The notes under the pieces were generated by a model. That model did not search any database. It worked only from the letters and a program-made list of their open reading frames with translations, and was not told where the DNA came from. From Synechococcus sp. RSCCF101 (GTDB taxonomy: Bacteria; Cyanobacteriota; Cyanobacteriia; PCC-6307; Cyanobiaceae): DNA of 64,000 nt. This document shows, piece after piece, positions 4,490-63,065 of the stretch; the first letter of the stretch is position 1, and each line of letters begins with the position of its first letter. The translations under genes were made by a program, and so were the position numbers. The stretch spans positions 2,108,001 to 2,172,000 of the forward strand of contig NZ_CP035632.1 in NCBI RefSeq assembly GCF_008807075.1. The letters are read 5' to 3'.

Positions 4490-5050
4490 TCAGTTCTCGC
4501 GACCGAGGTAACTGTCGTTGCGCGTGTCGATCTTGATCTTCTCGCCGATGGAGATGAACAGCGGCACCATCACCTGGGCACCGGTCTCCACAATCGCCGG
4601 CTTGGTCCCACCGGTGGCCGTATCCCCCTTCACACCCGGATCGGTCTGTGTGACCTCGAGAACCACGGAATTGGGAAGCTCGACTTCCAATGGGGCCTCA
4701 TTCCAGGACACCACATTGACTTCCATCCCCTCCTTCAGATACTTGCGCTGATCACCGATCTGCTTGGCGGTGAGGCGGGTCTCCTCGTAACTTGACATAT
4801 CCATGAACACAAAGTCTTCGCCATCCATGTAGGTGTGCTGAAGCGTGGTTTTCTCCAGCAGAGCCTGGGGAATCATCTCACCGGCGCGGAACGTCTTCTC
4901 CACAACATTCCCTGTCTGCACAGCCTTGAGCTTGGTGCGAACGAAAGCCGAACCTTTGCCGGGCTTGACATGAAGAAACTCAACCACACGCCAGACGGAG
5001 CCATCGATCTCGATCGTTGTCCCCGTGCGAAAGTCGTTGCTGGAGATCAT
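4490..5050 (-). CDS. efp: Translation elongation factor P
   Basis: 186 residues, the normal EF-P length, starting [17 protein letters not shown]. The KOW-like domain I carries the loop [10 protein letters not shown], with Lys32 at the position that is modified or protrudes to the peptidyl-transferase centre; domains II and III follow ([14 protein letters not shown], then the C-terminal [16 protein letters not shown] signature). EF-P relieves ribosome stalling on polyproline. I see no epmA/epmB or rhamnosyltransferase gene nearby. A longer frame extends upstream but it runs antisense through the cyclophilin gene, so the ATG at 5050 is correct. The cyclophilin gene is divergent, 64 bp away. Confidence 0.97.
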
Positions 5051-5114
5051 TCCCGCCAAACGGTTCAGGCGATTGTAGAGCTGTGCCAAAGTCCGCTCAG
5101 TGGACAGCTCCGCT

Positions 5115-6212
5115 ATGAAGCCACTCCTCAGGTCCATCACTCCAGCCGATCTGCTTCGCCCCGCCATCGCCCTGCTGCTGATGGCCGGCCTGATGCTGGG
5201 AGGATCGCCCGCCTTCGCCGGGCTGCCGCCGGGCAATGCGGTGACCGACCCGGACGCCCTGCTGCGGGACGCCCTTCCCGTGCAGCAGGAGGATCTGGTG
5301 GGTCTGCAGCACCGGCTCGAGGGCACCAGCGACGACCTGAGAGCCAAGCGCTGGAGCGCTCTGCTCCGCACCATCCGACGCACCCAGGCGGCCTACACCA
5401 CCCGCCGTGCCGTGATCCTGGACGCCGTCCCTGACGACCGGAGACAGCGGGCCGACGGGCTGATGGAGCAGCTGCGCACGGACCTGGAGGGACTGGCGGA
5501 GGCGGCGGAAACCCGGGACCGGGATGCCTTCCTGGCGGATCGGCGCCGGGCGCTCACCGCCATCGGAGGAGTGGAAGCCCTTCTGGTGCAGGGGGCGGAG
5601 GTGGTGATTCCGCCGGAGTTCGATGCGCTGCCCCGGCTGGTCGGGCGCGCGACTGTGTCGATCAGCACCAACAAGGGCGAGCTGCTGGCGGTCGTCGATG
5701 GCTACAACGCCCCCCTCACGGCCGGAGCCTTCGTGGATCTGGTGCGGCGGGGCTTCTACGACGGTCTGCCCTTCATCCGCGCCGAGGATTTCTATGTGCT
5801 TCAGACCGGGGATCCGAAGGGCGACGCCGATGGCTTCGTCGACCCCGCCAGCGGTCGTCAGCGCACGGTGCCCCTTGAGATCCGCATCCCCGGGGAGGAG
5901 GCTCCCTTCTACAACCAGACCTTCGAGGACCTCGGGCTGTACAAGGCGACACCCACCCTGCCCTTCGCCACCAAGGGCACCATGGGCTGGGCCCATTCCG
6001 ACCAGGCCCTCGATGACGGTTCATCACAGTTCTTCCTGTTCCTGTTTGAACCCGAACTCACACCGGCTGGCCTCAATCTGATCGATGGTCGCTATGCGGC
6101 CTTCGGCTACGTGGTCGATGGCTTCGATGTGCTGGAGGAGCTCACCGCGGACGACCGGGTGGAACGGATTCGTCTGGTGAACGGCGAGGAGATGTTCATG
6201 GACCATGCCTGA
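5115..6212 (+). CDS. Exported cyclophilin-type peptidyl-prolyl isomerase (TLP40-like)
   Basis: About 365 residues. The N-terminus has a hydrophobic segment [18 protein letters not shown] followed by SPAFAG, a good signal peptidase site near residue 31, so the protein is exported to the periplasm or thylakoid lumen. Residues 40-160 are an alpha-helical, charged region that resembles the N-terminal domain of the plant lumen cyclophilin TLP40/CYP38. The C-terminal half carries the cyclophilin fold ([36 protein letters not shown]). The arginine and phenylalanine positions of active cyclophilins are only partly conserved, so a chaperone role in photosystem II assembly is as likely as catalysis. 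A GTG at 5100 is an alternative start; ATG 5115 gives the better signal peptide. It overlaps thiL by 8 bp. Confidence 0.87.
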
Positions 6213-36237: not shown

Positions 36238-37002
36238 TCAGAGCCAGGGATCGGGGCGATCCCGCGGATCGGGACGGTCCCTGGGGTCATCCTCCTCCCA
36301 CTCATCCCAGACATCCCGGGCCGGGGGCGGCTCCCGGGCGGGAGCATCCGGTCCGTCCCAGCCGTCGTCGTCCTCCAGCCAGCCCTCCAGCCGGCTGCCG
36401 GCCCGCTGGCCGAACTCCTGAACCTGATCCCGCAGGTTGCCGGTGCGGTCGTCGAACTGATCGCGCCAGCGCCGCGAGCGTCGCATCAGCTCCTCCCGCA
36501 CGCTGGCCCGCACCAGGGGCAGGTCATCAAGACCCTGCAGCGCCGTGGTCACCCGGCCGGGCTGCTGGTCGGTGATGCGTCGGGGGTCGAGGCGCCAGCG
36601 GCTGCTGCCGGGGACGCGGGGATCGCTGCGGCTGACGAGGTAATCGATGATCGCTCCATCGGACAGCCGCACGCTGCAGTCGGCGATGGTGCCGATCACC
36701 TCGCCACCGGCATCCATCACCGGGGCCAGCAGCAGCGTGGGCAGGCGCTCGAGCGTCTCGTTGTCCGTGCCGGCGCCCTCGCCCCGCACGAAGGCCTCCT
36801 GGGTGGTGAGCCCACGCAGCTGGTTCAGCCGCCAGACCCAGCGCTGCTGGCCGAACTGGGACGGGCGGGTGGCCCAGCCGAGCAACCGGTGCACGGGCGG
36901 ATGCATCCAGGCGATGCAGCCCTGACCCCGGTCCAGCCCCTCCTCGCAGCGCACACGCCGCAGCAGGAGATCGCTGAGCAGCAGGCTCTCGGGCGCCTTC
37001 AC
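36238..37002 (-). CDS. PRC-barrel-like protein of unknown function, translationally coupled to dnaN
   Basis: 254 residues with a GTG start that overlaps the dnaN stop (GTGA). Two PRC-barrel-like segments can be seen: an N-terminal one (LLLSDLLLRRVRCEEGLDRG) and a clearer one near residue 90-125 (LLLAPVMDAGGEVIGTIADCSVRLSDG, YLVSRSDPR). The last ~90 residues are charged and then acidic, rich in Asp, Pro and Arg, with a short tandem DPRDRP repeat at the end. PRC-barrels bind RNA or protein; no activity is known for this family. The gene sits between dnaN and purL in picocyanobacteria as I know them, which suggests a conserved but unexplained link to the replication locus. Confidence 0.78.
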   Translation of the reverse strand: MKAPESLLLSDLLLRRVRCEEGLDRGQGCIAWMHPPVHRLLGWATRPSQFGQQRWVWRLNQLRGLTTQEAFVRGEGAGTDNETLERLPTLLLAPVMDAGGEVIGTIADCSVRLSDGAIIDYLVSRSDPRVPGSSRWRLDPRRITDQQPGRVTTALQGLDDLPLVRASVREELMRRSRRWRDQFDDRTGNLRDQVQEFGQRAGSRLEGWLEDDDGWDGPDAPAREPPPARDVWDEWEEDDPRDRPDPRDRPDPWL

Positions 37003-38144
37003 GTGCGGATCTGGACCGGCATCACCAGGTAGGTGAACCGGGGTTTGTCAGCTTCAGCGCTGAGCACGGCGGGGGTGGTGGCGGTGTTGCACTGCAGCAC
37101 CACCCGCTCATCGGTCAGGGCCTTGAGTCCCTCGAGCAGATAGCGGACGTTGAAGGCGATCTCGAGCGGCTCGCCTTCGATGCGGGCCGCCAGGGATTCG
37201 GCGCCACTGCCCACGTCCTGCGCATCGGCACCGACGCGGAGCACCCCGGCGGCCGGATCGCTGGAGAGGCGCACCACATTGTTGTGCTGATCAGCCAGAA
37301 CGGCCACCCGTTCCAGAGCCGCCTGCAGGGCCTTGCGGTCCACGAAGATGCGCCGGTTGAACGAGGCCGGAATCAGCTGCCGGTACTGGGGGTAGCTCCC
37401 ATCCAGGCTGCGGCTGGTGACGACGCGGTCGGCCCAGAGAAAGACCACCTGACCCCGCTCGGAGAAGAGGCTCACGCCGTCCTCGGGCGGCTGGCCGGAG
37501 AGCAGGCGCTCCACCTCACGCAGGGACCGGCTCGGCACCGTCAGCTCGAAGGGCTCGTCGGCCGTGGCGGGTTCCGCCACGGCATCCGGAATGGTCTGGA
37601 CCGCCAGGCGGTGACCGTCGGTGGCGGCCGCCTCCATCGATCGCTCCGTGAGGCTCAGGTGCACGCCGGTGAGCAACTGCTTGGCCTCATCGCCGCTGCT
37701 GGCGAAGAGGGTGCTGCGCAGGCCGCCGATCAGGGCCTCGGCGGAGAGTCGGATCGGCACCCCCGATTGCACCAGAGGCAGGTCCGGGAAGTCGTCGGCG
37801 GGCATGCCCCGCATCTGGTAAGAGCCGGTGAGGGAGGTGAGCTCCACCGATTCGCCGTCCTCGGAGGCGGTGAGGGTGATCGGGCTGTCCCCGGGCAGCC
37901 GGGCGACGATGTCGGAGAAGAGTCGTGCGGGGACCGTCACCGCTCCGCTGCTCTCGACACTGGCGGGCAGAGAGGTCTGAATCCCGAGGCTCAGATCGAA
38001 GCCGGTCAGGCTGAGGCGGCCGGTGCCGGCATCGGCGGTGAGCAGCACGTTGGCCAGCACCGGGTGGGTGGGGCGCGAGGCGACAGCCCGTCCCACCAGT
38101 TGCAGGCTGCCGTTCAGTTCGATCTGGGAACAGACCAGCTTCAT
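36999..38144 (-). CDS. dnaN: DNA polymerase III sliding clamp subunit beta
   Basis: 381 residues from the ATG at 38144; the open frame continues upstream, but this start gives MKLVCSQIELNGSLQLVGRAV, the family N-terminus. Three repeated clamp domains are recognisable, with the C-terminal LVMPVQIRT forming the terminal conserved end. It encircles DNA and tethers polymerase. Picocyanobacterial genomes are usually numbered from this gene because the replication origin lies beside it. Upstream is the 436 bp gap described as the origin candidate; downstream the PRC-barrel gene overlaps by 3 bp. Confidence 0.97.
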   Translation of the reverse strand: MKLVCSQIELNGSLQLVGRAVASRPTHPVLANVLLTADAGTGRLSLTGFDLSLGIQTSLPASVESSGAVTVPARLFSDIVARLPGDSPITLTASEDGESVELTSLTGSYQMRGMPADDFPDLPLVQSGVPIRLSAEALIGGLRSTLFASSGDEAKQLLTGVHLSLTERSMEAAATDGHRLAVQTIPDAVAEPATADEPFELTVPSRSLREVERLLSGQPPEDGVSLFSERGQVVFLWADRVVTSRSLDGSYPQYRQLIPASFNRRIFVDRKALQAALERVAVLADQHNNVVRLSSDPAAGVLRVGADAQDVGSGAESLAARIEGEPLEIAFNVRYLLEGLKALTDERVVLQCNTATTPAVLSAEADKPRFTYLVMPVQIRT

Positions 38145-38580
38145 GGTGGGGATGCAGGGGCTGGCGGCGGGCCGCCGAATCGGGCACCACGGTTTCACAG
38201 GAGGTGATGCCAGAGCAAGGGTGCCCCGGACCGGCCTGCGATCGCGAGGCCACCGGGAACGACGCGACGGTATCCACTTCCCCAGACCGTGGAAATCCCT
38301 ACGACTGAATGGTTTGAAGAAGGTCTTGAACAAGAACAAAAACCGCCGTAGCAGGGCCTGGGGAAACGCTGAAAAAAGCAGCTCATCCCCGTTCCGACCG
38401 CGATCTGCTCCAGCCGGCGCTGTGGAGACGGAGATGTCGGCTGGGGACGGCCACCCCGCTTTCCCCTGAGTTCACAGAACCCCCAGCCTGTTGAACGGCG
38501 CAGACCGAACCAGGCGCCTCAGGCCCGGTCGTTCTCCACGGCCTGGGGAGGGCGTCTTCCGCAGGTTCTCCCCAGCCGGC
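38145..38580. other. Candidate chromosomal replication origin region (dnaN-thrC gap)
   Basis: This 436 bp stretch is the largest gap in the window and I see no open frame in it that looks like a gene. It is delimited by dnaN and thrC, the arrangement where the origin is expected in picocyanobacteria. It contains four sequences two mismatches from the cyanobacterial DnaA box TTTTCCACA (38270-38278, 38288-38296, 38421-38429, 38532-38540), five copies of TCCCCAG on either strand, one exact GCGATCGC (38238-38245), and an AT-rich 39 bp segment (38304-38342, 13 G/C). No perfect DnaA box was found, so this is an inference from position plus motif clustering. dnaA is not in this window. Confidence 0.55.
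38304..38342. other. AT-rich segment, possible DNA unwinding element
   Basis: Only 13 of 39 bases are G or C here, about 33%, against roughly two thirds around it. It contains the runs GAACAAGAACAAAAA and is flanked by near-DnaA boxes on the left. It is the most AT-rich stretch of that length I noticed in the non-coding sequence. Unwinding elements in bacterial origins are AT-rich and lie beside DnaA box arrays, which fits; the upstream promoter of dnaN is an alternative explanation, since its −35/−10 region would fall in this direction. Confidence 0.4.
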
Positions 38581-39705
38581 TCAGAAGCCCATCACGCCGG
38601 CCACCACCGGCAGGGTCGGTTCCAGGTCGGTGTGGAAGGCCGCGTCGTTGTTGGCGATGGCGCAGTCGGGGTCCTTGAGCCCGTTGCCCGTGAGCACACA
38701 CACGACCGTGGCGCCGGATGGCACCTCCTCGGCCCGCTTCAGCAGACCCGCAACGGAGGCGGCACTGGCCGGTTCGCAGAACACACCCTCTTCGCCGCCC
38801 AGCAGCTTGTAGGCCGCGATGATCTCCTCATCGGTCACGTCGAGAAAGGCGCCACCGCTCTCGGCCCGCGCCGCCAGCGCCTTCTCCCGGTTCACCGGGT
38901 TGCCGATCCGGATTGCTGTGGCGATCGTCTCCGGATGCTCCACCGTGCTGCCCTGCACCAGGGGGGCGGAACCACTGGCCTGGAAGCCCATCATCCTGGG
39001 CAGGCTGGAACAGCGGCCGGCCCGCGCGTATTCCTGGAAACCCATCCAGTAGGCGCTGATGTTGCCTGCGTTGCCCATCGGGATGCAGAGCCAGTCCGGC
39101 GCCCGTCCCAGGGCATCCACCACCTCGAAAGCGGCGGTCTTCTGGCCCTGAAGCCGGTAGGGATTGACCGAGTTGACCAGGGTGACCGGATAGCTGGCCG
39201 CCATCTCCTGGACGATGCTGAGGGCGCGATCGAAGTTGCCGCGGATGGCCAGCACCTCGGCTCCGTAGACCAGCGCCTGGGCCAGCTTGCCCTGGGCCAC
39301 ATAGCCATCGGGAATCAGCACGAACGCCCTCAGACCGCCACGGCGGGCGTAGGCCGCGGCCGCGGCCGAGGTGTTGCCGGTGCTGGCGCAGATCACCGCC
39401 TCGCAGCCGGCCTCCTTGGCCTTGCTGATGGCCATGGTCATGCCACGGTCCTTGAAGGAGCCCGTGGGATTGAGGCCGTCGTATTTCAGGTGCACCGTCA
39501 CGCCACGGCCGATGCGCGCGGCCACGGCCGGAGCGGGGATCAGGGGGGTGGCTCCCTCCCGCAGCGTGATCACGGGAGTGGCTTCGCTCACCGGAAGCCA
39601 GGAGCGGTAGGCCTCGATCAGACCGGGCCAGTCGGCTGGGGACGGAGCAGCGGCCCTCCCCCATTGCCGAAGAAGCGGGGACAACCAGGACACCACGGCG
39701 CGCAC
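38581..39705 (-). CDS. thrC: Threonine synthase
   Basis: About 374 residues from the GTG at 39705; the frame is open further upstream but there it runs into the DUF1400 gene. The PLP lysine is in NPTGSFKDRG; the phosphate-binding STGNTSAAAAAYA and the later MGNAGNISAYWMGFQEY and GEEGVFCEPASAASVAGL segments are all present. It converts O-phosphohomoserine to threonine. Its 3' end forms the right border of the origin-candidate gap. In other picocyanobacteria thrC is also the gene on the other side of that gap. Confidence 0.94.
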   Translation of the reverse strand: MRAVVSWLSPLLRQWGRAAAPSPADWPGLIEAYRSWLPVSEATPVITLREGATPLIPAPAVAARIGRGVTVHLKYDGLNPTGSFKDRGMTMAISKAKEAGCEAVICASTGNTSAAAAAYARRGGLRAFVLIPDGYVAQGKLAQALVYGAEVLAIRGNFDRALSIVQEMAASYPVTLVNSVNPYRLQGQKTAAFEVVDALGRAPDWLCIPMGNAGNISAYWMGFQEYARAGRCSSLPRMMGFQASGSAPLVQGSTVEHPETIATAIRIGNPVNREKALAARAESGGAFLDVTDEEIIAAYKLLGGEEGVFCEPASAASVAGLLKRAEEVPSGATVVCVLTGNGLKDPDCAIANNDAAFHTDLEPTLPVVAGVMGF

Positions 39706-39721
39706 GTCGGTGCGGCCGAAT

Positions 39722-40417
39722 CTAGGGTGCGCTGCCCTCCGGATCCGAGGCGGCATCAGGGCCGGGGCCGGCATCGGTCCCGGAGCTGGAGTCCGGCGAC
39801 TCGATCCCACCCCGCAGACCGTCGAGGGGCGATTCACTGAAGAACCGCACCAGTTCAGCGATCGAGCTGGCCTTGCGGATCACGCCCATCAGTGCCGGGA
39901 TGTTCACCTCCATGTCGTCGGTGGGGTAGGCCTTGAGCCATCCCACCGGCGTCAGCCGGCCCTCCCCGTTGTCCAGGCCGAGGATCACTGCGGCCCGGAA
40001 GGCCGGAACACCGGACCGCGGACTGTTGAGTGGATACACGATCTGGGCGACCCGCTCGATGATGGCGGTGCCGATGCGTGTGTTCATCAGCCGACTGGTG
40101 AGCACCAGGGGGAGGCTGATGCCCTGATTGAGCAGGCCGGAGACGGTCTCGGGGTCCTGATTGCTGAAGCGCAGCACGTCCGCGAGCAGGCCCCGTGCCT
40201 GGCCGGTCTCGGCCAGGTGCTCGAGATCCGCCACGGGGATGGAGCGGCGGAAGGCGCCACTGACGAAGGCCACCCGTTCCGCGGCACGGCTGGGCAGTGC
40301 CTGGCTCAGGCTCAGACCCAGAAGCATCGCCAGAAGAGGAGCGGCGACAGCGCGGCGGGCGCGTGATGTGGGCACGGTGCTCTCGCTCACGGCGCTGACC
40401 AGCGATGGGCCCGACAT
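39722..40417 (-). CDS. Exported DUF1400-only protein
   Basis: 231 residues. There is a basic start followed by AVAAPLLAMLLGLSLSQALPSRAA, a signal peptide cleaved after about residue 45. The mature part contains the DUF1400 domain (AFVSGAFRRSIPVADLEHLAETGQ, RIGTAIIERVAQIVY), which in cyanobacteria usually precedes an alpha/beta hydrolase domain; that catalytic part is absent here. The last ~35 residues are acidic, low-complexity and end in DPEGSAP. A full DUF1400-hydrolase is encoded 7 kb away in this window. The gene starts 1 bp before the ABC1 kinase stop and is followed by thrC after 16 bp. Function unknown. Confidence 0.78.
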   Translation of the reverse strand: MSGPSLVSAVSESTVPTSRARRAVAAPLLAMLLGLSLSQALPSRAAERVAFVSGAFRRSIPVADLEHLAETGQARGLLADVLRFSNQDPETVSGLLNQGISLPLVLTSRLMNTRIGTAIIERVAQIVYPLNSPRSGVPAFRAAVILGLDNGEGRLTPVGWLKAYPTDDMEVNIPALMGVIRKASSIAELVRFFSESPLDGLRGGIESPDSSSGTDAGPGPDAASDPEGSAP

Positions 40418-42446: not shown

Positions 42447-44162
42447 GTGCTCACCGCCCTCCGGCTCGAGAACATCGCCCTGATCGACCAGCTGGAGCTC
42501 AGCTTCTCCGGTGGCTTCACCGTGTTCACCGGCGAGACGGGCGCCGGTAAATCCCTTCTGCTGGACGCTCTCGATGTGCTGCTGGGAGGCGGCGGTTCCG
42601 GAGCCGCCGCCCGGCTGATCCGCGACGGGGCGCAGCAGGCCCGGATCGAGGCCCATTTCGCCGTCAGCCCTGCCGTGGCCAGCTGGCTCGAGCAGCAGGA
42701 GCTGGAGCCCGAGGGGGAGCTGAGCATCAGCCGGGACTGGCGTCTGGGGGAGAATCGCCTCAGCAGCCGCTCCCGGCTCAATGGTGTGCTGGTGGGCCGG
42801 CCCCAGCTGCAGGAGCTGAGGCCGCTGCTGGTGGACCTCACGGCCCAGGGCCAGAGCCAGCGCCTGGCCCAGAGCGCCGGTCAGCGCCTCTGGCTCGATC
42901 GGTTCGCGGGGCCGGAGCTCGACGGTTCCCTGCGGGACGCCGCCGAGGCGTGGAGCGCCTGGACCGATGCCAGTCAGGCTCTGGAACGGCTGCGCCGCGA
43001 GCAGCAGGAGGCACAGCTGCAGCGGCTGCAGCGGCAACAGGAGCTGGAGGACCTGGAGGCCGCGGCCCTGGAGGACCCCGGCGAGGTGATCCAGCTGCAG
43101 CGGGACCAGGACCGCCTGGCTCACGGCGTGCACCTGCAGGACGGTCTCGCTGCGGTGATGGGCGGCCTGCGCGACGGCGACAGCGCCGGTGCGGCGGCCG
43201 TGGACCAGCTGGCTGGCGCCACCCGGACGCTGCTGCAGCTCCAGGAGCTGGATTCGACGCTGTCGACCCTCGCCGACGGCTGCGCCGATCTGGCGGCCGG
43301 CCTCGATCAGCTGGTGCGCGATCTCGATCGCTACGCGGGACTGCTGGAGAGCGATCCGGCCGCCCTGGCCGACCTTCAGGATCGTCTGGCTCAGCTGCGG
43401 GCCCTGGAGCGGCGATATGGGCTGGAGCTGCCGGAGCTGATCCGGCGCCGCGACGCCCTCCGGCGGGAGCTGGACGGTGCGGATGCCGCCGATGATCTCG
43501 ATGCGCTCGCCGCCTCTGAGGAGCGGGCCCGCGCCCGGCGCGACGCCGCCAATGCCGAGCTCAGCGGCGGAAGGGCCCGTGCCGCAGCGCGGCTGGAGAC
43601 GGAGCTTCTGGAGACTCTGGCCGGACTGGGCCTGGAGGCCGCCCGCTTCCACGTGGCGATCCAGCCGGGGGACCCGGGTCCCCATGGGGCGGACCGGGTG
43701 GCGTTCCTCTTCTCGGCCAATCCCGGTCAGCCTCTGGCACCTCTGGCCGAGGTGGCCTCGGGCGGGGAGATGAGCCGCTGCCTGCTGGCGCTCAAGGCGT
43801 CGCTGGCCGCGGCCGACGCCGACGTGAGCCTCGTGTTCGACGAGATCGACACCGGGGTGAGCGGACGCATCAGCGAAGCCATCGCCCGGCTGCTGCGCCG
43901 GCTGGCGGCCCATCGCCAGGTGTTCTGCGTGACCCACCAGCCGCTGATCGCCGCCGCGGCCGATCACCACTTCCAGGTCAGCAAGCAGGTGCGGCAGGGC
44001 CGGACCCACACCCGGGTCAATGCCCTCAGGGACTCGGGATCCCGGCAGCAGGAGCTGGCCGAGCTGGCCGGCGGCGGTCGCAGCGGCGCGCAGGAATTCG
44101 CCGCCCGGCTGCTTGAAGGCGCGTCCCCGCCGCAACCGCCCGACGGGACCGGTCGGCCATGA
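42447..44162 (+). CDS. recN: DNA repair protein RecN
   Basis: 571 residues, SMC-like ATPase with a GTG start. The N-terminal Walker A is FTGETGAGKSLLLDAL (about 30-45); a coiled-coil arm fills the middle; the signature motif ASGGEMSRCLLALK and Walker B LVFDEIDTGVSG are in the C-terminal ATPase half. RecN acts early in double-strand break repair. The coiled-coil arm is rich in Glu/Gln/Leu/Arg. The gene is 46 bp upstream of uvrA, so it may be co-transcribed; no LexA box could be identified. Confidence 0.96.
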   Translation: MLTALRLENIALIDQLELSFSGGFTVFTGETGAGKSLLLDALDVLLGGGGSGAAARLIRDGAQQARIEAHFAVSPAVASWLEQQELEPEGELSISRDWRLGENRLSSRSRLNGVLVGRPQLQELRPLLVDLTAQGQSQRLAQSAGQRLWLDRFAGPELDGSLRDAAEAWSAWTDASQALERLRREQQEAQLQRLQRQQELEDLEAAALEDPGEVIQLQRDQDRLAHGVHLQDGLAAVMGGLRDGDSAGAAAVDQLAGATRTLLQLQELDSTLSTLADGCADLAAGLDQLVRDLDRYAGLLESDPAALADLQDRLAQLRALERRYGLELPELIRRRDALRRELDGADAADDLDALAASEERARARRDAANAELSGGRARAAARLETELLETLAGLGLEAARFHVAIQPGDPGPHGADRVAFLFSANPGQPLAPLAEVASGGEMSRCLLALKASLAAADADVSLVFDEIDTGVSGRISEAIARLLRRLAAHRQVFCVTHQPLIAAAADHHFQVSKQVRQGRTHTRVNALRDSGSRQQELAELAGGGRSGAQEFAARLLEGASPPQPPDGTGRP

Positions 44163-47202: not shown

Positions 47203-48761
47203 TGACAGCTCCCAGCTTTTCTGTCCGCCGCGCCGGGAGCCGACGCTCCCCCGCGCGCTGGGCCTGCCGTCTGCTGCTCGCGTCCGGTTTGGTGGGCCTG
47301 GTGGCGCCCGCCCGGGCGCTGGAAGCCCTTGAGATCGAACTTCCTGTTTTCGGAACGGGATTCCGGATCGAACTCGGTGAACTCGAGTCTCCGGAACAGC
47401 TGATTGCCGGAACCAGCGATCTCGCCGAGCTCGACCGGGCCACCGATGGTCGTGTGGGCCGCCAGCTGCTCACGTTGTTCAACGCTCCGCTGCCCGCGGA
47501 TCTCACATCCGTGGTGGAAGGGTCCTCGGGTCAGCCTCTGTTCGAGCAGGCCCTGATGGGCCTCAGCCAGCTGGTGGATGTGGAGGGGGTGGAGGTGGAC
47601 ACCAGTGGCCGGGTCCTTGCCGAGGCGATCCAGACCGCCAAGGCCGCCGGGCAGCCCACCCTGCTCGGCATGCTCCGCGCGCTGCCGGGTTCCACCGCGA
47701 CCATCAATCTCGGGCGCACCGCCGTCGTGGCCCGGCGTCTGCGCCGCAACCAGCGGGAGGGCCGCCGGCTGGTCGCATCCCTGCCGGCGGCCACGGTGGC
47801 GCCGTCCCTGAAGGAGCCCGGCCCGAACACCTGGGAACGCAGCCGCGCCGAGGTCACGGCGGCACACCGCCCGGAGCCGATCAGTGTTGAGGTGGTGCGC
47901 CCGTTGCAGGGGTCGAACCGGCGTGTGGTGGTGATCTCCCATGGCCTCTGGGATTCCCCCGCCAGCTTCGGTGGCTGGGCCGAGCATCTGGCCAGCCATG
48001 GCTTCACCGTGCTGCTGCCGGAGCATCAGGGCAGTGACAAGAAGCAGCAGAGCGCGATGCGCTCGGGAACCCTTCCGCCCCCGACGCCGGAGGAGCTGCG
48101 CCTGCGGCCGATCGATGTCAGCCGCGTGCTGGATGCGCTCTCCTCCGGAGCACTGATCGGTGATTCGGGCGCTCTGACCACCGATGCGGTCGGGGTGATC
48201 GGCCATTCCTGGGGGGGCACCACCGTGATTCAGCTGGCGGGCGCCGAAGCCAGGGACCCGAGGCTGGTGGAGCTCTGCGATGACTACAACCATCCCTCCC
48301 GCAACCTGAGCTGGTTTCTCCAGTGCAGCCTGCTCTCCTCGGCCGACGGCACCTCCCTGGCCGACCCGCGGGTGAAGACCGTGATCGCCGTCAGCCCGGT
48401 GGTGGGGCTGCTGTTCGATCCCACCCCCGATCGGGGTGCGCAGCTGGCCCCCATGCTGTTGACCAGCGGCACCGCCGACTGGGTCGTGCCATCCGGGCCG
48501 GAAGCCCTGACGCCCTTCCGCCGAGCTGATGCGGCCGCCAACGGGCACCGGCTGGTGCTCGCCGACGGCGGTGACCACTTCAACCTGCGGGCGCCGGATG
48601 GATCGGGAGGCGGTGCCCTCGGCGGCCTGATCCTGGCCTGGATGGAGGCCCAGCTGGCTCCAGCCGCGGTTGACGGAAGCGTTCCGGCGACCCTGCCGCC
48701 CCAGGGCTGGGGTGATGTGCGCTATCCACTGGTGGACGTCACCTCCGAAACGCGACCCTGA
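47202..48761 (+). CDS. Exported DUF1400-alpha/beta hydrolase
   Basis: 519 residues. Basic start then WACRLLLASGLVGLVAPARALEALE, a signal peptide with cleavage near residue 35. Residues ~40-175 form a DUF1400-like domain (GFRIELGELESPEQL, RVGRQLLTLFNAPLP). The C-terminal ~330 residues are an alpha/beta hydrolase: nucleophile elbow GHSWGG, a likely acid in TSGTADWVVP, and the histidine in DGGDHFNL. The product is probably a secreted esterase or lipase with unknown substrate. The ATG overlaps the uvrA stop; a GTG three bases earlier is an alternative start. Conserved cyanobacterial family. Confidence 0.85.
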
Positions 48762-48803
48762 GGGTCTCCGCCGGCGGCCCGGACGGCCCCCTCCCGCGCC
48801 TCC

Positions 48804-61318: not shown

Positions 61319-61351
61319 TGCCAGGTGAGCACAGGTTTAAGGGTGCGTTAA
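61319..61351 (-). promoter_or_regulatory. Pho-box-like triple direct repeat upstream of pstS
   Basis: Reading on the minus strand toward pstS, the sequence gives TTAACGCACCC, TTAAACCTGTG and CTCACCTGGCA, i.e. three 11 bp units in tandem; the first two share TTAA at an 11 bp period, and CTTAAACCT resembles the cyanobacterial Pho box half-site CTTAACCT. PhoB/SphR sites have the same 11 bp period. The unit ends 83 bp before the pstS ATG. It contains the stop codon of the upstream flavoprotein gene (61337-61339). Score only by eye. Confidence 0.6.
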
Positions 61352-62443
61352 CAGCCCGATCTGACGGCTCACCCAGGCCGCGCTGGCCGGTGCCAGCAGC
61401 ACCCCGTTGCGGTGATGGGCGGTGGCCACGATCAGTCCCGGCTCCGGCTGCTCGAGCACCGGCGCCGGCCGGCCGGCCGGCCGCGGCCGGATCCCCTCCC
61501 AGCGATGGCACAGCCGTGAGCGCCGCAGCCAGTCCGGCGGGTCTCCCTCCAGCTCCCGCAGCCGGTTGAGCGGAGTGCTGCCGGCTCGCCGGCCCGGCTC
61601 CACCGTGGCACCGACCCAGAGTCGTCTGCCCGGCCGGGGCACCAGGTTGAGGCCGCGCCAGACCATCGCCCCGGGCCAGCGCCTCCACAGATCGCCGTCC
61701 GGCAGGGGATCGGTCAGCTCCAGCTCCAGGGCCTGGCCCAGGACCGGCGCCACCGGGATCGGGTGATTGAGCGGCGCCAGCAGGGCGTTCAGCCCTGTGG
61801 CGACACACAGCACCAGCCAGCGGCCCTCCAGCGGCTCCCCCTGTTGCCGCTGCACCCGCCAGCCCCGCTGGCAGCGCTCCAGGGCCCTGACCCGATCCGG
61901 CAGCAGACGTCCGCCCAGGCGAGCCACCTCGCTGCGCAGGGCCTGCAGCAGCGGCAGCGGGTCGATCTGGCCGTCGGTGGCGGAGTGCAGACCGCCCAGG
62001 GCCTGACGCGGCGGGTGCGGCTCCAGTAGCCGGAGATCACCGGGCTCGAGCCAGCGCAGGTCGCGTTCAGCGCCATGGGCGTCCGCGAAGGCCCTGAGGC
62101 GCCCCTCCTCGTCGGCATCGGCCGCCAGCAGCAGCAGGCCGGAGCGGGCGGGCAGCCGATGGCCGGCCTGCCGCAGCTCCGCGATCCATCGAGGCCACAG
62201 CGCCATGGCCTCCTGGCGCAGCCGCAGGCCGCGGCCACTGCGGCGCCGGTACACCTGACCCATCAGCACACCGAGGGCGGCGGGAGAGCCCCAGGCACTG
62301 GGTGCGGGGGGCGCCTGAGTGGGTCCGGTCGTCTCCGCCAGCTCGGGGTCCATCAGGGTCACGGCGCACCCCTGGCGGCTGAGCTGCCAGGCCACGGCGC
62401 TGCCGACGACACCGGCGCCGACCACGATCACCTCAGGGGCCAT
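61337..62443 (-). CDS. FAD-dependent oxidoreductase, DAO superfamily (glycine oxidase ThiO-like)
   Basis: 368 residues from ATG 62443. VIVVGAGVVGSAVAWQLSRQG is the FAD-binding GxGxxG region; the family core GGLHSATDGQIDPLPLLQAL follows the ThiO arrangement, and VGATVEPGRRAGSTPL with the closing HRNGVLLAPASAAWVSRQI is the C-terminal FAD site. ThiO oxidises glycine to iminoglycine for the thiazole of thiamine, but many DAO members have other amine substrates; I cannot decide which. thiL is far away. Its stop codon lies inside the Pho-box-like repeat of pstS. Confidence 0.82.
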   Translation of the reverse strand: MAPEVIVVGAGVVGSAVAWQLSRQGCAVTLMDPELAETTGPTQAPPAPSAWGSPAALGVLMGQVYRRRSGRGLRLRQEAMALWPRWIAELRQAGHRLPARSGLLLLAADADEEGRLRAFADAHGAERDLRWLEPGDLRLLEPHPPRQALGGLHSATDGQIDPLPLLQALRSEVARLGGRLLPDRVRALERCQRGWRVQRQQGEPLEGRWLVLCVATGLNALLAPLNHPIPVAPVLGQALELELTDPLPDGDLWRRWPGAMVWRGLNLVPRPGRRLWVGATVEPGRRAGSTPLNRLRELEGDPPDWLRRSRLCHRWEGIRPRPAGRPAPVLEQPEPGLIVATAHHRNGVLLAPASAAWVSRQIGLLTHP

Positions 62444-62498
62444 CTCCGGCCGATGAAGGGTTCGGCCGCTCCGGATGAGGAGCGGCGGGCAGGCCGGA

Positions 62499-63065
62499 TC
62501 AGGCGGCCGGCAGGCCCATGGCTTCCATGGCGTCGTCGCCCTCGTCGCTCGCCTCAGTGGTGCTGTCCGCGGCGGCCCGGGCGGCGGCCTCATCGGCAGC
62601 GGCCTGGATGCTGGCGATGGCCTGGGCCGGAATCACCTCGGCGTAGCTGGCGAACCCGGCGGCCACGCCGGAGTAGGCCCGATCCATGCGCATCGGCTCC
62701 TGCAGGCGTGCCGCTTCATCCAGCTCGGCCATGGAGCGCTTCAGGGCGGCGGCGCGGGAGTTGGCCTCGGCCCGATCGCCCGGCAGCAGGCGCTGGTTGA
62801 TGTAAAGCATCTCCCGGCCCACCTCCTGCATCGGGCCGTGGATCAGGTTGCGCGCGAAGATCCAGTTGCGCTGGGAGACCAGCGCCGCCAGCTCAGGCAG
62901 ACGCTCCATCGAGGCCAGATAGCCCTCTGCCTGACGGGTGATCACCGCCATGTCCTCGGGTGGGATGCCGGGCTGGGCGGACTGGGCGCCGGAGCAGGCC
63001 ACCAGGGACACCGCCAGGGCCAGGCTGAGGCAGGCCTTGAGCAGGCGACGCAGGGTGGGGGCCAT
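62499..63065 (-). CDS. psbQ: Photosystem II extrinsic lipoprotein PsbQ (CyanoQ)
   Basis: 188 residues. MAPTLRRLLKACLSLALAVSLVACSG is a lipoprotein signal with the lipidated cysteine at residue 24. The mature protein is a four-helix bundle: ITRQAEGYLASMERLPELA, QRNWIFARNLIHGPMQEV with the tryptophan/proline region of PsbQ, REMLYINQRLLPGDRAEANS, and LQEPMRMDRAYSGVAAGFASYAEVIP. It binds on the lumen side of photosystem II and stabilises the oxygen-evolving complex. The longer open frame upstream reads through the purU gene and is not real. It is divergent from purU by 111 bp. Confidence 0.9.
   Translation of the reverse strand: MAPTLRRLLKACLSLALAVSLVACSGAQSAQPGIPPEDMAVITRQAEGYLASMERLPELAALVSQRNWIFARNLIHGPMQEVGREMLYINQRLLPGDRAEANSRAAALKRSMAELDEAARLQEPMRMDRAYSGVAAGFASYAEVIPAQAIASIQAAADEAAARAAADSTTEASDEGDDAMEAMGLPAA

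Follow-up and report, generated by a model that had tools for sequence, protein, structure and literature searches.

A probable chromosomal replication origin with weak DnaA-box-like sites beside dnaN in Synechococcus sp. RSCCF101, and distal DnaA-box arrays upstream of DUF2811 genes

Linkage of the chromosomal origin of replication (oriC) to dnaN is the rule in cyanobacteria, being given for 55 of 68 species in the available part of PMC4674748. The oriC of Synechococcus elongatus PCC 7942 lies beside dnaN and possesses a cluster of DnaA boxes, with a skew switch nearby and with dnaA located elsewhere (PMC4674748, PMC7198777, available parts); seven of its eleven boxes read TTTTCCACA (PMC4674748, same part). 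Irregular GC skew is common in cyanobacteria according to the available part of PMC7198777, so a GC-skew switch is not required of a cyanobacterial oriC, and the same text states that the role of DnaA in cyanobacteria replicating without it is an open question. For the basal unwinding system (BUS), the accessible text of PMC8287927 describes a box followed by a spacer and by triplets of the form 3'-NAN-5', the commonest being 3'-GAT-5', found chiefly beside the box. Under its search rule, a box with no more than two mismatches must have at least three such triplets no further than 16 bp away.

The window (the whole stretch of DNA analysed, 64 kb) spans positions 2108001-2172000 of C1, the single contig (2,984,853 bp) of a genome that is 98.1% complete. 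The gap between dnaN and a thrC-like gene (436 bp, 65.4% GC) therefore lies at C1 2146145-2146580 (Table 1). It is very probable that this gap is oriC, an ordinary origin with weak initiator sites, an assignment consistent with the clustering of boxes, the gene order, the box positions common to relatives, the instability of the duplex and the AT skew. These same lines of evidence support a preliminary description of the DNA, in which a dnaN-linked origin with diverged initiator sites had been proposed. A further point in favour is that dnaA is present elsewhere in the genome as one intact gene (544 kb, approximately 1.38 Mb from the gap) that encodes a complete protein, C-terminal domain included. 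Compared with the oriC of S. elongatus PCC 7942, as it is described in the available parts of the sources named above, the locus shares the general arrangement but contains no TTTTCCACA, and its skew is seen in A/T rather than G/C.

Table 1. Coordinates of features in and around the dnaN-thrC gap (window positions) and at the 1.29-Mb locus (C1 positions, last two lines)
Feature	Position	Strand	Basis
oriC region (very probable), entire intergenic gap	38145..38580	.	Box clustering; architecture common to 69 aligned relatives; AT-skew switch nearby
dnaN, DNA polymerase III beta clamp	36999..38144	-	Three Pfam DNA polymerase III beta domains
thrC-like gene, PLP-dependent enzyme	38581..39837	-	Pfam PALP only; same neighbour in 77/80 relatives
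dnaN-proximal element CCACGGTTTCACAGG	38187..38201	+	Identical 15 letters in 14/69 aligned relatives; sister form CCACGCTTCCACAGG in 17
Box-like GTATCCACT (mismatches: two to TTATCCACA, three to TTTTCCACA)	38270..38278	+	Mismatch scan
TCCCCAG-type core, CTTCCCCAG	38277..38285	+	Core scan
Box-like ATTTCCACG	38288..38296	-	Mismatch scan
AT-rich unstable block, candidate DNA-unwinding element	38303..38342	.	Duplex stability
Triplet tract CTG CTA CGG CGG after spacer GGCC (38355-38358); candidate DnaA-trios of eroded BUS	38343..38354	-	
DnaA-box-like GTTTCCCCA, adjoins triplet tract, one mismatch from TTTTCCCCA, two from TTTTCCACA	38359..38367	-	Alignment column B5
Degenerate partner of tandem pair, TTTTTTCAG	38369..38377	-	Alignment column B4
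Box-like GTCTCCACA, single box	38421..38429	-	Mismatch scan, alignment column B3
CTTTCCCCT at second box of facing pair	38459..38467	+	Alignment column B2
Box-like TTCTCCACG	38532..38540	+	Mismatch scan
Box-like site, no more than two mismatches from TTTTCCACA	38555-38563		Mismatch scan
Box-like TTCTCCCCA, one mismatch from TTTTCCCCA	38566..38574	+	Mismatch scan
EF-P gene in uncovered stretch	4490-5383		Crude codon-usage caller, then inspection
RecN/SMC-like gene in uncovered stretch	42447-44162		Crude codon-usage caller, then inspection
ORFs in uncovered stretches	39722-40417; 61337-62593		
CbiX gene	C1 1290406-1291482	-	Pfam CbiX
DUF2811 gene	C1 about 1293275-1293517	+	Pfam E 2.4e-26

Gene order and DnaA-box-like sites of the gap

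The closest matches of the DnaN protein, approximately 74% identical, were found in Cyanobium, Synechococcus and other cyanobacterial records, and in members of the same family. In a DnaN search of named genomes, from which the best 80 of 211 loci were kept, the order thrC-gap-dnaN was identified in 77 of 80 relatives, the records of the other three (L011, L021 and L070) ending before thrC. This upholds the earlier observation that the gap adjoins dnaN as in picocyanobacteria, and the thrC label given at that time fits the gene order, with Pfam itself returning PALP only. A crude codon-usage gene caller left uncovered stretches longer than the gap in the 64-kb window, 722-1820 and 47203-48803 among them; the four inspected (Table 1) hold genes, and the gap may be the largest of the window, as described earlier. 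Between dnaN and a purL-like gene there is a 254-aa ORF (36238-37002, minus strand) for which no Pfam match was found; a tblastn match to it follows dnaN in the loci of all 80 relatives.

Six 9-mers with no more than two mismatches from TTTTCCACA were identified in the gap (at 38288, 38359, 38421, 38532, 38555 and 38566), where 0.28 would be expected per 436 bp at the rate of the window. First-order Markov copies of the gap (n=1000) held a mean of 0.88 such 9-mers. Two of the gap sites, 38359 and 38566, differ from TTTTCCCCA at no more than one letter. Of the 15 copies of the core TCCCCAG in 64 kb, counted over both strands, five are in the gap. The preliminary description had recorded that the gap lacks a perfect DnaA box, which was confirmed for both TTTTCCACA and TTATCCACA. 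Three of the four sites that it had placed two mismatches from TTTTCCACA stand, with the fourth (38270-38278) being three away; its list was also incomplete, as 38359-38367, 38555-38563 and 38566-38574 fall within the same limit, and it had overlooked the well-conserved sites 38359-38367 and 38187-38201. The TCCAC cores, thought to be all on one strand, were found on both (38270 and 38532 on the plus strand, 38288 and 38421 on the minus strand).

The search of the gap for a site within one mismatch of TTTTCCACA gave none, which counts against oriC. That all gap sites are at least two mismatches from TTTTCCACA would also suit the view that they arose by chance in a long spacer rich in GC, but this is exceedingly improbable, given that six sites were reached in none of the 1000 Markov copies and that the site positions recur across 69 aligned relatives. 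The gaps of the 77 relatives, 363 to 1797 bp in length, contain 3 to 10 sites with no more than two mismatches from TTTTCCACA (4 to 8 in 64 of them) vs 0.2 to 2 expected per gap from its own locus, and nine of the 77 have no site within one mismatch. The commonest box forms in 78 gaps (window included) were TTTTCCCCA (59 sites), GCTTCCACA (43) and TTTTCCCCG (29), showing C in place of A at box position 7 to be a habit of the family. After removal of near-duplicates, TTTCCCCAG was found in 60 of 76 gaps (window included) vs 1.3 in Markov copies.

Alignment was performed on 70 gaps, those of the window and 69 relatives, with six excluded by length. As had been advised earlier, the gaps of relatives were thus compared, and box positions were found to be common to the window and the 69 relatives. 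In the direction from thrC to dnaN, the aligned gaps begin with a facing box pair (TTTTCCCCAG, GTGGAAAAC), a single box (TTCCCCAG) and a tandem pair (TTTTCCCCG, TTTCCCCAG), and continue with CCCTACGACGACGG, a tract rich in T and CGTTGCGC, with either TGTGGAAGCGTGG or TGTGAAACCGTGG close to dnaN; a module of box, spacer and triplets beside the unstable block is common to the alignment. The window retains the second box of the tandem pair, the single box, the second box of the facing pair and the dnaN-proximal element, with the first boxes of both pairs being degenerate. It resembles the picocyanobacterial thrC-dnaN origins (Cyanobium, Synechococcus) in gene order, box order and the frequent C at box position 7, but differs from them in the degenerate first box of its tandem pair and in an altered CGTTGCGC. 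The TTGC letters of CGTTGCGC are invariant in the 69 relatives and are altered in the window as aligned; a weaker match containing TTGC was seen by eye near 38210-38223. The best-conserved element of the gap is the one nearest dnaN (38187-38201). This element occurs in two forms, CCACGCTTCCACA and CCACGGTTTCACA, of which positions 6 and 9 seem to covary.

Duplex instability, triplet tract and strand skew

The AT-rich block noted in the preliminary description is real, 38303-38342 being the 40 bp of lowest stability in the window. When the length scanned is raised to 60 bp, one further place is equally or more unstable, and at 100 bp there are six. Beside this block the window reads GGCC CTG CTA CGG CGG, then TTTTTGTTCTTGTTC, where CTA on the strand read here corresponds to 3'-GAT-5'. 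The resemblance to the BUS, as it is set out in the accessible text of PMC8287927, consists of a box, a 4-nt GC spacer, triplets and an AT-rich run in the same order. The tract differs from the BUS in that only two of its four triplets have the conserved middle base and in that the next qualifying run lies 16 bp from the box. This run, TTT TTG TTC TTG TTC (38328-38342), comprises five qualifying triplets and starts exactly 16 bp after box 38359, so that under the published search rule, in the form given in that text, it would just qualify, and the tract alone supplies two qualifying triplets.

For further comparison, 700 bp upstream of dnaN was taken from 20 additional genomes of the family. 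The homologous tract was found to contain the canonical CTACTACT in all ten relatives below 40% GC among those fetched, as in the BUS of PMC8287927 (accessible text). Of 96 sequences scanned with a pattern for the module, 85 matched. Three of the ten low-GC genomes (L171, L173 and L177) are among the 11 that did not, and at least one match (L180) looks false. Among the 85 matches T was the middle base of the first triplet in 85 (a feature scored by the pattern itself), of the second in 33, of the third in 41 and of the fourth in 21. The mean number of canonical triplets was 3.86 of four in the seven matches below 40% GC vs 1.81 in the 63 matches of at least 55% GC. All of these figures describe pattern matches rather than an unbiased test. 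From these sequence comparisons the tract of the window is read as a putative homologue of the BUS that has partly decayed in a GC-rich lineage. The unwinding module would have the canonical form in relatives of low GC content and a partly eroded form in those rich in GC.

Strand skew was sampled in 40 even stretches of 20 kb and in 16 more that were concentrated around the gap and where the terminus is expected; together with the window, these cover 38% of the chromosome. In the 40 even stretches GC skew was weak and AT skew clear. A two-breakpoint fit of AT skew on a 10-kb grid gave 2.17 and 0.63 Mb (R2 0.12). The gap and its antipode lie at 2.146 and 0.654 Mb, and the best breakpoint is 24 kb off the gap; positions from 2.15 to 2.19 Mb were within 3 lnL units. 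Block bootstrapping (60 rounds, 5-95%) placed the first breakpoint at 2.14-2.18 Mb and the second at 0.56-1.31 Mb. With the share of plus-strand ORFs allowed for, the replichore term had t = -5.4 for AT and -1.2 for GC. When the 40 stretches were permuted 20,000 times the AT difference was never reached, although neighbouring stretches are not independent, and 5% of all chromosome positions separate the AT arcs as well as the gap does. A switch in strand composition near the gap and its antipode is therefore present in AT skew at a resolution of tens of kb, and its sign agrees with a leading strand that is rich in T and starts from the gap. The skew supports an origin region and not an exact base.

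A GC-skew switch at the gap, which the preliminary description had proposed as a check, was uninformative here, as the best two-breakpoint fit (0.54 and 2.69 Mb, R2 0.04) gave the gap no support. The GC skew, the R2 of 0.12 and the 24-kb offset of the AT fit, the 5% of positions that separate the arcs equally well, the uneven placing of the added stretches and the altered CGTTGCGC are further points against oriC. The GC skew would also suit a gap that is only a promoter or regulatory region of dnaN, with DnaA as regulator and with replication starting at multiple sites, as happens in certain other cyanobacteria, since irregular GC skew is seen in multiple-origin cyanobacteria (PMC7198777, available part), and this reading gains from the best-conserved element being that nearest dnaN. 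We consider it improbable, as AT skew forms two arcs of about equal length that meet near the gap, and the triplet tract and unstable block have no obvious promoter role.

If the gap is oriC, as is very probable, DnaA would bind weak boxes of the form TTTYCCMCA across the gap, and from box 38359-38367 a DnaA filament would grow over the GGCC spacer onto the triplet tract. The AT-rich block would then be opened by DnaA, and helicase would be loaded there to give two diverging forks. The assignment locates the origin of a GC-rich picocyanobacterium that has no close relatives in the search set.

Perfect-box arrays at 1.29 Mb and upstream of DUF2811 genes

Perfect boxes elsewhere in the genome are evidence against oriC at the gap. 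The pattern TTTTCCMCA was found to have 20 matches in the genome, none of them in the gap, vs four for the reversed pattern, and five perfect copies lie at 1,290,342-1,293,321. These belong to two arrays of near-perfect DnaA boxes outside the window (C1 1,290,297-1,293,517). The first is situated 3' of the CbiX gene, facing a GMC oxidoreductase gene, and has two copies of TTTTCCCCA and one of TTTTCCCCG, spaced at 22 and 20 bp, together with ATTTCCACA. In the second, upstream of the DUF2811 gene, two perfect TTTTCCACA are spaced at 20 bp, and another perfect copy lies within the gene itself.

Perfect boxes clustered near dnaA had been named in the preliminary description as grounds for doubting the gap; a cluster does exist at 1.290-1.293 Mb, but it is not near dnaA and AT skew has the same sign on its two sides. 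Were the working origin this cluster beside the CbiX and DUF2811 genes (1,290,297-1,293,321), the concentration of five perfect boxes into 3 kb (three TTTTCCACA, two TTTTCCCCA) would be readily accounted for, but positive AT skew was sampled to either side of it (at 1.19, 1.27 and 1.34 Mb). Furthermore, the CbiX gene is separated from dnaN by 29% of the genome length in this chromosome, and by 31-46% of theirs in 13 relatives with single-contig genomes (five lengths rounded), which makes dnaN-centred and CbiX-centred origins incompatible with each other. An origin at the cluster is thus highly improbable, and with the unchanged AT-skew sign and the CbiX-dnaN distance the arrays in general are unlikely as origins.

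Two other perfect TTTTCCACA (C1 457922 and 1884191) share the flank GAGTTTTCCACATGTA and lie beside an apparent repeated transposase gene, identified by eye, and at least these two were therefore taken for insertion-sequence copies carrying a DnaA-box-like site. An 11-column matrix refined by EM from the relatives was dropped after drifting to a T/C-rich mix of phases; among those of its top places that were inspected (part of the list), 1269355 and 2617884 had no site within one mismatch, and 2219622 and 449-450 kb had one or two.

CbiX followed by DUF2811 on one strand was found in 28 of 69 fetched loci, and in all 28, over 34-70% GC, the spacer between them has at least two boxes within one mismatch of TTTTCCACA or TTTTCCCCA, with the 20-22 bp spacing recurring. 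Each of the 30 DUF2811 loci fetched from the family, the best matches among 61 genomes, has at least two boxes in the 500 bp upstream, Markov copies of these stretches holding 0.02 to 0.63 boxes. A length of 500 bp misses the arrays of L258 and L283, which are visible at 700 bp. A phylum search, which included 50 genomes outside the class (most of them from groups outside this study) and found DUF2811 within the class only, gave 30 DUF2811 loci, of which L280 (source genome), L284 (genome without dnaA) and L287 were set aside. L287 is a second, divergent DUF2811 copy in G212 with no box upstream. All 27 remaining class loci have at least two boxes in the 700 bp upstream (mean 4.1), vs three of 27 in the 700 bp downstream (mean 0.56), and dnaA was found in 26 of the 27 genomes behind them, with G228 lying outside this test. 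Successive plus-strand boxes over 30 loci are most often spaced at 22 bp (36 times), followed by 21 bp (13 times) and 11 bp (seven times).

The datA and DARS loci are DnaA-box clusters outside origins that change the amount of active DnaA. At the 1.29-Mb locus, a candidate for such a role, a box cluster conserved in relatives was seen, and the arrays may titrate DnaA, control DUF2811, or both. Searching four array loci against Rfam gave nothing. Only DUF2811 was significant in a Pfam search of the DUF2811 protein, and a profile search for a solved relative found none (best E 0.11); an impression that it could be a ribbon-helix-helix protein was unsupported by either search. No paper mentioning DUF2811, and none with TTTTCCCCA together with DnaA, was found in a literature search.

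DUF2811 and dnaA across cyanobacterial genomes

DUF2811 is little studied and seems tied to DnaA in cyanobacteria. Among 195 genomes of the class with at least 95% completeness, the DnaA C-terminal domain was absent from three (G201, G204 and G206) and DUF2811 from four, namely G201, G206 and the drafts G245 and G331, both of which have dnaA. Two of the three genomes without dnaA thus also lack DUF2811 (Fisher p 0.0009, related genomes not being independent). The link is not absolute, as G204 keeps DUF2811 without dnaA; no box within one mismatch was found in the 700 bp upstream of its DUF2811 gene.

It is possible, although doubtful, that the timing of initiation in cyanobacteria depends on an imbalance of sites, in which an origin with weak boxes is set against distal near-perfect arrays (21-22 bp phase) upstream of DUF2811 genes. 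The small uncharacterised DUF2811 protein would act together with DnaA and be under its control, would for the most part be retained only alongside DnaA, and would be a DnaA target even where replication is DnaA-independent. DUF2811 is a conserved candidate DnaA target that is directly testable and bears on the role of DnaA where replication is independent of it.

A joined dnaA and DUF2811 query of 156 genomes of the order of G206 gave at least two matches in 129, one in six and none in 21, matches being counted without sorting each pair into one DnaA and one DUF2811. The six single-match genomes include DnaA in two (G473 and G476) and DUF2811 in one (G204). The 20 match-less genomes among those listed belong to seven families, and genera g221 and g193 each contain one member with two matches alongside others with none; joint absence of DUF2811 and dnaA looks repeated.
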